Source of the DNA: Coriobacteriia bacterium
Lineage (GTDB): Bacteria; Actinomycetota; Coriobacteriia; WRKU01; WQUG01
Length of the DNA: 36,505 nt
Direction of reading: 5' to 3'
Assembly: GCA_009778715.1 (NCBI GenBank)
Contig: WRFR01000019.1
Location: 1-36,505, forward strand
Position 1 is the first letter of the stretch, and every line of letters starts with the position of its first letter. Under the pieces are notes generated by a model. That model ran no database searches. It saw only the letters and a program-made list of their open reading frames with translations, and was not told the DNA's origin. This document shows positions 19,363 through 36,505 of the stretch, in pieces. The position numbers and the translations under genes are program-made.

Positions 19363-21744
19363 CTTGATTTTTCGACGCTGAACGAGGCGCAGCGCGAGGC
19401 GGTGCTCTGCACCGAGGGTCCGCTGCTGGTGCTCGCGGGAGCGGGCAGTGGCAAAACGCGTGTGCTAACGTATCGCATCGCGCACCTGGTTTCAGATTGC
19501 GGCGTCGATCCATCCCAGGTACTGGCCATCACGTTTACGAATAAAGCGGCTGGTGAGATGCGCAGCCGTCTGGCCGGGATGCTCGGAGAGTATGCCCGGG
19601 GCATGTGGGTGGCGACCTTTCATGCGGCCTGCGTGCGCATTCTGCGCGCCGAGGCTGAAGCGCTGGGCTATACCCGCAATTTCACGATCTATGACGAGGA
19701 TGACTCGCGACGCCTCATCAAGGAGATCATGACCGAGCTTGACCTGGATACGCAGGCCTTTGCTCCCAAGGCTGTTCGCGCGCGGATCTCGACTGCCAAG
19801 AACAAGCAACAGAAGCCCGAAGACCTGCGTGACTTTGGGTCGGCGCCGATTGATCGCATCGTCAAGCAGGTCTATGCGCGCTTGCAGGAGCGCCTGCTCG
19901 CCAACAACGCGATGGACTTTGACGACCTGCTCTGTAATGTGGCGCGGCTTTTCGACGAGCATCCCAAGGTCTTGCGCCGTTATCAGGACCGGTTCCGCTA
20001 CATCCATGTGGATGAGTATCAGGACACGAACCATGTGCAGTATCTCATCACGAGTGCGCTGGCGGCACGCTCGCACAACTTGATGGTGGTCGGTGACGAC
20101 GACCAGTCTATCTACTCCTGGCGCGGGGCCGACCTGAATAACATCCTTGAGTTCGAGCGTGACTACCCCAAGGCCACCGTCATCAAACTTGAGCAGAACT
20201 ATCGCTCGACGGGAAACATCCTTGAGGCCGCTAACGCGGTGGTCGCGCACAATACGGCGCGCAAGGCCAAGCGCCTGTTTACGGCGGCTGCGGCGGGGGA
20301 GAAGGTCTCGCTCTATCTGGCGGTCAACGAGCGCGATGAAGCGCGCTATGTCACCGGCGAGATCGAGCGGCTGGCGCGCGCTGACAAAACGGCGCCTGAC
20401 CCCCTTTTATCAGGTGAAGTGGGGCACTACGGCGATTTCGCGGTGTTTTATCGCACCAACGCCCAGAGCCGCGTGTTGGAGGATGCGCTGCTGCGAGCGG
20501 GCATCCCGTATCGCATCGTCGGGGGCACGCGCTTTTTCGATCGCGCGGAGATTCGCGACGTGATGAGTTATCTGAAAGTGGTGATCAATCCATCCGATGA
20601 GCTTTCCCTGCGTCGCGTCATCAATACGCCGCGCCGGGGTATCGGCGCCAAGACGATCGAGATGGTCGAGGCCGCCGCCCGCGCAGGTGGCGTGACTTTC
20701 GAGGCAGCCGCGCGCAAGCTGGCTGTTGATGACAGAATGGGGTCAGGCACCGTTTTGTCAGGTGTGGCTGACAAAACGGTGCCTGACCCCATTCTGTCAT
20801 CACTGAAACCTGCAGCGAAGGCCGCATTGGCAGACTTCCTCGCCGCGATCGACACCATGCGCTCCTGGGAGGGCGACCTGGTCAACGTGGTCGGTATGAT
20901 CATCGAGCGCAGTGGCCTGCTTGCCGCTCTCGGGGCCGATCGTAGTGACGAGGCTGCCTCGCGCGCGGAAAACATTCACGAGTTCCTCAATGTGGCGGCA
21001 GAGTTCGCCGAGACCCACGAAGACGACGATCACGACCTCTACGCCTTTGCCGAGTGGCTGGCGTTGCGCAGCGACGTTGACGCGCTTGCTGATGAGACCG
21101 ACACCGTCACGCTTATGACGGCACACACGGCCAAGGGCCTGGAATACCCGGTGGTGTTCATCACGGGGCTTGAGGAGGGACTCTTCCCGCACGCAAACTC
21201 GGTCTATGAGGAGGCAAGCGTCGAGGAGGAACGTCGCCTGGCCTATGTGGCGATCACGCGCGCGCGCCGCAAGCTCTACCTGACACGCACCGCCACGCGC
21301 ATGAACTTCGGCAACTTGCAGAGCAATCCGCCAAGCCGTTTCATTGGCGAGATCCCCGACGAGCTGCTCGAGATCGCTGGGATCGGCTCACGTGACTTCG
21401 GTGGCGTGGGTGGCTGGGAAAAACGCGGCGATCGCCACGCGGTTTCCGGTTACGGTGCTGAGTATGAAAGCGATCATGGCTACGGCCGCAGGCGCGATGA
21501 GGACGCCGGGCGGACGTTCGGATCCGGTGAGATCGGCGGATCTGTTGGGAGTCTTGAGGCACGTAGGAAGCGCACCAAGGCCGAGGCAGTTACCTTTGCC
21601 GCAGGCGACAAGGTCGATCACAAGACCTTCGGGCGCGGTACGGTCATCAAGACTGAAGGCGATGCGCTCTATATCCGCTTTGATGGCCCGGCGGGCGAAA
21701 AGAAACTCATGAAGGGTTTCGCCCCTCTTGTAAAAATCAGGTAG
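19360..21744 (+). CDS. pcrA: ATP-dependent DNA helicase PcrA/UvrD
   Basis: A 794-residue superfamily 1A helicase that unwinds DNA 3'-to-5' in repair and plasmid replication. Seen in order: Q-motif LNEAQREAV, Walker A AGAGSGKT (26-33), motif Ia ITFTNKAAGEM, motif II VDEYQDT (217-223), motif III VGDDDQSIYSWRGAD, motif IV QNYRST, FYRTNAQSRVLE, motif V LMTAHTAKGLEYPVVF, motif VI VAITRARRKLYL, and the PcrA C-terminal KOW-like domain (KVDHKTFGRGTVI). The start is inferred as CTG 19360. Two foreign peptides lie in surface loops: about 341-352 (DKTAPDPLLS) and about 457-482 (DDRMGSGTVLS ... DKTVPDPILS), encoded by palindromic repeats without breaking the frame. Confidence 0.93.
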   Translation: MLDFSTLNEAQREAVLCTEGPLLVLAGAGSGKTRVLTYRIAHLVSDCGVDPSQVLAITFTNKAAGEMRSRLAGMLGEYARGMWVATFHAACVRILRAEAEALGYTRNFTIYDEDDSRRLIKEIMTELDLDTQAFAPKAVRARISTAKNKQQKPEDLRDFGSAPIDRIVKQVYARLQERLLANNAMDFDDLLCNVARLFDEHPKVLRRYQDRFRYIHVDEYQDTNHVQYLITSALAARSHNLMVVGDDDQSIYSWRGADLNNILEFERDYPKATVIKLEQNYRSTGNILEAANAVVAHNTARKAKRLFTAAAAGEKVSLYLAVNERDEARYVTGEIERLARADKTAPDPLLSGEVGHYGDFAVFYRTNAQSRVLEDALLRAGIPYRIVGGTRFFDRAEIRDVMSYLKVVINPSDELSLRRVINTPRRGIGAKTIEMVEAAARAGGVTFEAAARKLAVDDRMGSGTVLSGVADKTVPDPILSSLKPAAKAALADFLAAIDTMRSWEGDLVNVVGMIIERSGLLAALGADRSDEAASRAENIHEFLNVAAEFAETHEDDDHDLYAFAEWLALRSDVDALADETDTVTLMTAHTAKGLEYPVVFITGLEEGLFPHANSVYEEASVEEERRLAYVAITRARRKLYLTRTATRMNFGNLQSNPPSRFIGEIPDELLEIAGIGSRDFGGVGGWEKRGDRHAVSGYGAEYESDHGYGRRRDEDAGRTFGSGEIGGSVGSLEARRKRTKAEAVTFAAGDKVDHKTFGRGTVIKTEGDALYIRFDGPAGEKKLMKGFAPLVKIR
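20382..20412 (+). repeat. Palindromic-element half copy inside pcrA
   Basis: 31 bases bounded by TGACA and its degenerate inverse ATCA. It matches the right arm of the element at 20769-20799 in 27 of 31 positions, in the same orientation and reading frame. Confidence 0.8.
20727..20802. repeat. Long perfect hairpin element inside pcrA
   Basis: Arms 20727-20761 and 20768-20802 are exact reverse complements over 35 bp with a 6-nt loop (GTGTGG). The unit contains GGGGTCAGGCACC and is translated in frame as part of PcrA. It resembles REP-type or Rickettsia-type palindromic elements that insert in coding sequence. Confidence 0.92.
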
Positions 21745-21775: not shown

Positions 21776-21800
21776 TGACAAAGGGTCAGGTACTTTGTCA
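21776..21800. repeat. Degenerate third copy of the palindromic element
   Basis: TGACAAAG (21776-21783) and CTTTGTCA (21793-21800) form a perfect 8-bp stem around GGTCAGGTA, which resembles the core GGTCAGGCA of the pcrA element. It lies 31 bases after the pcrA stop; the rest of 21745-21960 shows no gene. Confidence 0.6.
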
Positions 21801-23543: not shown

Positions 23544-23551
23544 GGGAGTCC

Positions 23552-23669
23552 GCGGAGAAAGTGGAGGGGGTGCGCCTGCTCAGGCAGTCCTCGACGCGGA
23601 TGCTCTTGCTGAATGGGGTTCTCTGCGCGTCTGCGGAACTCGCATTCGCACCCCCTCCACTTTCTCCGC
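23552..23669. repeat. Inverted repeat, 23-bp perfect arms
   Basis: Arms 23552-23574 and 23647-23669 (starting GCGGAGAAAGTGG) are exact reverse complements separated by 72 bases. Inside, GACGCG and CGCGTC form a smaller stem. It could be a MITE-like unit or a large transcript hairpin. No target-site duplication is obvious. Confidence 0.8.
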
Positions 23670-23698
23670 TCACTGCATACCCTTAATAAAAATCCACT

Positions 23699-36423: not shown

Positions 36424-36505
36424 TTTTCCCCACTTCAACGGTGGGGAATTCCCCGAAAAAACGGGGATGGGGAATTCCTGAGTTTTGGAAGGACATGTCC
36501 ATAAC
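36384..36505. mobile_element. Probable end of an insertion sequence (IS21-like)
   Basis: From TGTATTTGTTAG at 36384 the sequence leaves the integrase frame and shows repeated AATTCCCC/GGGGAATT motifs (36401-36408, 36443-36454, 36469-36478) and TTTTCCCCAC (36424-36433). Terminal TG and several such repeats resemble IS21-family ends; no transposase is within the window, so this is inference. Confidence 0.5.

Follow-up and report, generated by a model that had tools for sequence, protein, structure and literature searches.

A REP-like inverted doublet translated within PcrA of a Coriobacteriia bacterium and its relation to a family of TGACA-ended hairpins

The REP, REPIN and BIME elements associated with RAYTs are palindromes of 20-40 bp that occur as singlets and as inverted doublets, are dispersed and are non-autonomous (PMC2817692, PMC3116915), properties that they share with the hairpins considered here. 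REPs located within genes are known for the GTAG and CGTC families; these are in frame, often doublets, add 20-30 amino acids and are frequent in DNA repair genes, including that of a UvrD/Rep helicase, and in two Xanthomonas species different REPs are present at about the same recB site (PMC3733652). Repeats of the form GGGG[AT][CG]A[CG] (GGGGWSAS) flank the transposase genes of the TIRYT type, i.e. TnpAREP subclass 2.1 (PMC3733652, PMC6006769).

In the 36,505-nt stretch of Coriobacteriia DNA that was analysed (the window), positions 20727-20802 form a perfect inverted repeat, with 35-nt arms (20727-20761 and 20768-20802) that are 100% complementary and separated by a 6-nt spacer. It outranks every other inverted repeat in the window by far, and its predicted single-stranded DNA fold has an energy of -43.9 kcal/mol (z -16 relative to shuffled sequence). 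The palindrome, a REPIN-like inverted doublet, consists of a 31-bp unit, TGACA...GGTGCCTGACCCC...TGTCA, itself an imperfect hairpin, that is present twice in opposite orientation, at 20730-20760 (minus strand; the plus strand reads D-R-M-G-S-G-T-V-L-S) and 20769-20799 (plus strand; D-K-T-V-P-D-P-I-L-S); these are the only occurrences of the half unit in the window, with a chance expectation of 0.00. The surrounding coding sequence (19402-21744, plus strand; 780 residues, stop codon at 21742-21744) specifies a UvrD/Rep-family helicase, which matches the Pfam profiles UvrD-helicase (309 bits) and UvrD_C (249 bits) and the NCBIfam pcrA model TIGR01073 (853 bits, spanning 14-724 of 725 profile positions); translation probably begins slightly before the GTG at 19402. 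The 780-residue frame reads straight through 20727-20802, confirming the original prediction both of a perfect 35-bp palindrome in the PcrA frame and of an insert that keeps this frame without a stop.

Alignment with PcrA from relatives, the check suggested for that prediction, bears out the status of the doublet as an insertion, in that its residues are missing from all 29 of the aligned PcrA/UvrD proteins (29 loci in related genomes). Its size, first put at about 26 extra residues, is slightly lower, at about 22-24 residues by alignment. Two further units had been overlooked. A single 31-bp unit, TGACAAAACGGCGCCTGACCCCCTTTTATCA (20382-20412, plus strand; D-K-T-A-P-D-P-L-L-S), is a second in-frame insertion in pcrA, adding 11 residues around DKTAPDPLLS that are likewise missing from the 29 aligned proteins. 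A 25-bp relative, which belongs to a sister family, TGACAAAGGGTCAGGTACTTTGTCA, lies in the gap after pcrA (21776-21800, minus strand), and the corresponding place in a sister genome of the same genus (G002) has no counterpart of it. In an alignment with the B. stearothermophilus PcrA structure (1pjr), the single unit is placed immediately ahead of the FAVFYRTNAQSR motif, before the 2A core motif, and the doublet lies in what we take to be domain 2B.

The source genome (G000; 1.73 Mb in 48 contigs, 94.7% complete) and that of G002 are both fragmentary metagenome assemblies and were sampled in stretches, covering about half of G000 and about 1.4 Mb of G002; a third genome, G003, is from the same family. 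The search for the half unit proposed in the original prediction revealed genome-wide repetition, with 40 exact matches to the 31-bp family core in G000 and 9 with one mismatch, many as inverted pairs. Hairpins of the pattern TGACARAN{6,22}TYTGTCA number 112 in G000, 84 in G002 and 16 in G003, compared with 0 to 4 in other genomes of the order and with none in any of the three for a reversed-pattern control. The unit consensus has ends GVTGACARA...TYTGTCABC and a core with GGGGTCAGG[CT]AC; T never precedes TGACA and A never follows TGTCA (72 clusters in G000, 61 in G002), and G and C dominate at positions -2/+2 outside these ends. The cores vary between families (GGTGCCTGACCCC, GTACCTGACCC, CACCCCAGGGGTG, TTACCCCTGGGGTAA and others), each being palindromic or nearly so; the GGGGTCAG motif is carried by the 31-bp family and, among the 25-bp units, by the TGACAAGGGGTCAGG variant, and is lacking in CACCCCAGGGGTG and TTACCCCTGGGGTAA. 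At 25-31 bp, dispersed and in high copy, the units fit the 20-40 bp imperfect palindromes by which REPs and REPINs are recognised. Searches of the literature with the core sequence gave no match, and plasmid and phage collections gave only partial, chance-like core matches; the Rfam matches on the hairpin, to microRNA families below threshold, were judged spurious and due to its perfect form.

The G000 sample contains 16 inverted doublets of identical units, with spacers of 5 or 8 nt and in one case 10 nt; three of the 25-bp doublets have the spacer TGCGCGCA in common. The palindromy of the flanks reaches further in doublets than in single units (mean 3.4 versus 1.1 nt, p 0.001), which suggests that some doublets arose by local inverted duplication, others having spread as doublets. 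Inverted repeats were also seen elsewhere, namely an intergenic one, AGTCCGCGGAGAAAGTGGAGGGGGTGCGCCTGC, at 23547-23674 of the window (33 nt, 88% complementary, arms 62 nt apart), and hairpins with a common GGAATTCCCC...GGGGAATTCC, close to contig ends, at window positions 36445-36478 and at L114:55-85.

In the sampled half of G000, about 15 of the 73 clusters are in frame within genes according to a simple codon model, on which some of the gene calls rest. The remainder are intergenic, at the edge of a gene or not assignable, the elements being, as is typical of REPs, mostly extragenic. Fourteen of the 15 intragenic clusters are in one common phase, and 14 of the 15 have a length of 1 mod 3. 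The genes with in-frame copies include carA, ispE, coaX, hemD, lpd, dinG (two sites) and those for NAD kinase, P-type ATPases and a PGI-like protein. Translation in the favoured phase yields DKxGSGTxLS or DKxxPDPxLS; of the other two phases, one is interrupted by TGA stops and one specifies a peptide containing Cys and Phe. Within genes, frame-keeping insertions alone would be expected to survive, and a unit in the favoured phase would form a hydrophilic linker of the DKxGSGTxLS or DKxxPDPxLS type that surface loops, such as those of PcrA, may tolerate; the inserted peptide is presumably neutral to the protein. A different repeat, GTCGTCGCGCCCTA (e.g. L102:8724-8908), has 86 copies in the G002 sample (about 1.4 Mb) and 4 in that of G000, at least one repeat being translated within IspE.

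The proposal that a RAYT-type transposase accompanies the repeats was not borne out for the source genome. In G000 (94.7% complete) no Y1 transposase was detected, either with Pfam PF01797 or with a RAYT profile of 14 sequences, the latter including the G002 protein itself, in which genome it scores 278 bits; none was found in G003 either. The sole RAYT-like gene of G002 is flanked by a different family, GGGGACGGTTC, and a link between it and the TGACA family was ruled out on account of these flanks. This gene (L100:4902-6420; NCBIfam REP_Tyr_transpos 77.3 bits, cut-off 80) has GAGACAGGGGGACGGTTCTTCTGTCTC-type repeats at its flanks, from a family whose core is matched 65 times in the sampled G002 sequence. 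Among 396 genomes of the phylum, GGGGTCAGGYAC is in high copy in only a few, i.e. G066, G067, G122 and G000, and Y1 transposases are present in the first three of these; in G067 a tandem array of 32-bp units with GGGGTCAGGT adjoins one (L227:2261-2413). In G091, G344 and G122 (L226, L230, L237, L238), Y1 transposase genes are bracketed by inverted GGGGTC motifs, those at L238 having the form TGACT...GGGGTCRGGC...[AG]GTCA. These bracketing repeats match the published GGGG[AT][CG]A[CG] repeats of TIRYT / TnpAREP subclass 2.1. The REP-like nature originally proposed is supported, in that the insert is repeated across the genome and its core is of the GGGGTCAG type, which flanks Y1/RAYT-like transposase genes elsewhere (PMC3733652, PMC6006769).

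Taken with the copy number, the conserved ends, the in-frame position and the absence from relatives, the core shared with these repeats makes it probable that the palindrome represents two inverted units of a short REP-like element, which is non-autonomous and was spread by a TIRYT-kind Y1/HUH transposase that has been lost or missed. New sites would receive copies of single units or of inverted doublets, usually with 5- or 8-nt spacers, the most plausible route being transfer of single-stranded hairpins by such an enzyme (TnpAREP subclass 2.1) acting in trans, the gene for which is either no longer present or not assembled. Counting against this proposal are the lack of a Y1 gene in G000 and G003, the position of the G002 RAYT beside GGGGACGGTTC repeats and the cores without GGGGTCAG. 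At orthologous junctions the insertion points sit in variable linkers, which prevented any clean empty site or target duplication from being recognised.

For 28 G000 clusters the flanks have orthologues in the sampled part of G002, and at 14 of these 28 sites a repeat is present there too, usually from another family, compared with 17 of 447 control sites (p 2e-11); in the reverse direction, from G002 to G000, the values are 10 of 25 and 5 of 299 (p 3e-9), the controls being sites at which the alignment also breaks, unmatched for linker tolerance or intergenic position. In dinG, for example, the same loop contains an in-frame doublet in each of the two genomes, that of G002 being from the GGGGACGGTTC family. 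A refinement compatible with the REP-like explanation, and one that we regard as a real possibility while stopping short of calling it probable, is that the elements at shared sites are ancestral and that their sequence has been replaced in place, such that the core turns over, either by conversion or by insertion into an existing hairpin. The excess of site sharing in both directions is consistent with this, as are L033:2273, where the left junction TTGTAG[GC]TGACAAAA is identical and the cores differ, and L126:10099 and L146:8469, where the difference is mainly a flipped centre. However, the shared sites may simply be permissive, and in G002 the sites in the P-type ATPase and lpd genes are taken up by an unrelated low-complexity linker, as fits independent filling of tolerant loops; the limits of the control also weigh against replacement. 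Thus two readings of the shared sites remain, i.e. inheritance with replaced cores and independent filling of tolerant sites. More tentatively, the hairpins, in and between genes, might hold their position across species as their sequence is swapped for that of the currently active family; were this so, the translated peptide in a given loop of a given essential protein would differ between related bacteria.

It is improbable, in our view, that the units are instead MITEs of a DDE transposon, with terminal inverted repeats starting TGACA that are moved by a cut-and-paste transposase. The strong terminal inverted repeats and the failure to detect a Y1 transposase in G000 are in accord with such an origin, but the 25-31 bp units are nearly all palindrome, without internal sequence, no target-site duplication is recognisable, and the 5- and 8-nt doublet spacers and GGGGTCAG cores are REP-like. 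Less credible still is selection in place of the palindromes as non-mobile regulatory or protein-binding sites; although most copies are intergenic or close to the end of a gene and the terminal motifs are conserved, the near-identical units fall into several families and the PcrA copies are missing from orthologous genes, and sites fixed in place were rejected on the basis of the in-frame copies in many unrelated housekeeping genes. An artefact of metagenome assembly, in which chimeric reads can yield perfect inverted repeats and which might be considered for a genome in 48 contigs, is scarcely to be entertained given the intact frames, the approximately 16 doublets with mostly different spacers and the presence of repeat doublets in the separately assembled G002.

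As with TIRYT / TnpAREP 2.1, there are a GGGGTCAG core, an inverted arrangement and, in other Actinomycetota, a flanked Y1 gene (PMC3733652, PMC6006769); by contrast, the TGACA-ended hairpins studied here are REP-like and exceed 100 copies in a genome that yielded no transposase gene, and some sister cores lack the GGGG[AT][CG]A[CG] motif. The hairpins differ from REP/REPIN/BIME systems with RAYTs in having no GTAG/GGAG guide (their flanks being GV and BC) and in that no RAYT was found in the genome. The resemblance to Rickettsia palindromic elements that was originally proposed holds as an analogy, both being palindromic repeats translated in frame within essential genes; the core differs (GGGGTCAG), and kinship is not claimed. 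In view of the published intragenic REPs in UvrD/Rep-type helicases and the recB site case, the phenomenon is already known in kind. The repeats here are of another class and in another phylum than the intragenic GTAG and CGTC REPs, one pcrA gene carries two separate insertions, and site sharing is seen at many loci. The newer part is that in G002, of the same genus, a repeat is also present at 14 of the 28 sites that could be compared, usually from a different family, against 17 of 447 in the control. A REP-like expansion that has reached high copy number and invaded genes, in a Coriobacteriia lineage of the gut, is tied by these findings to the GGGGTCAG (TIRYT) repeat class, and a comparison of two species with different families at the same sites makes both the turnover of REP-like elements and their tolerance by essential proteins directly testable.
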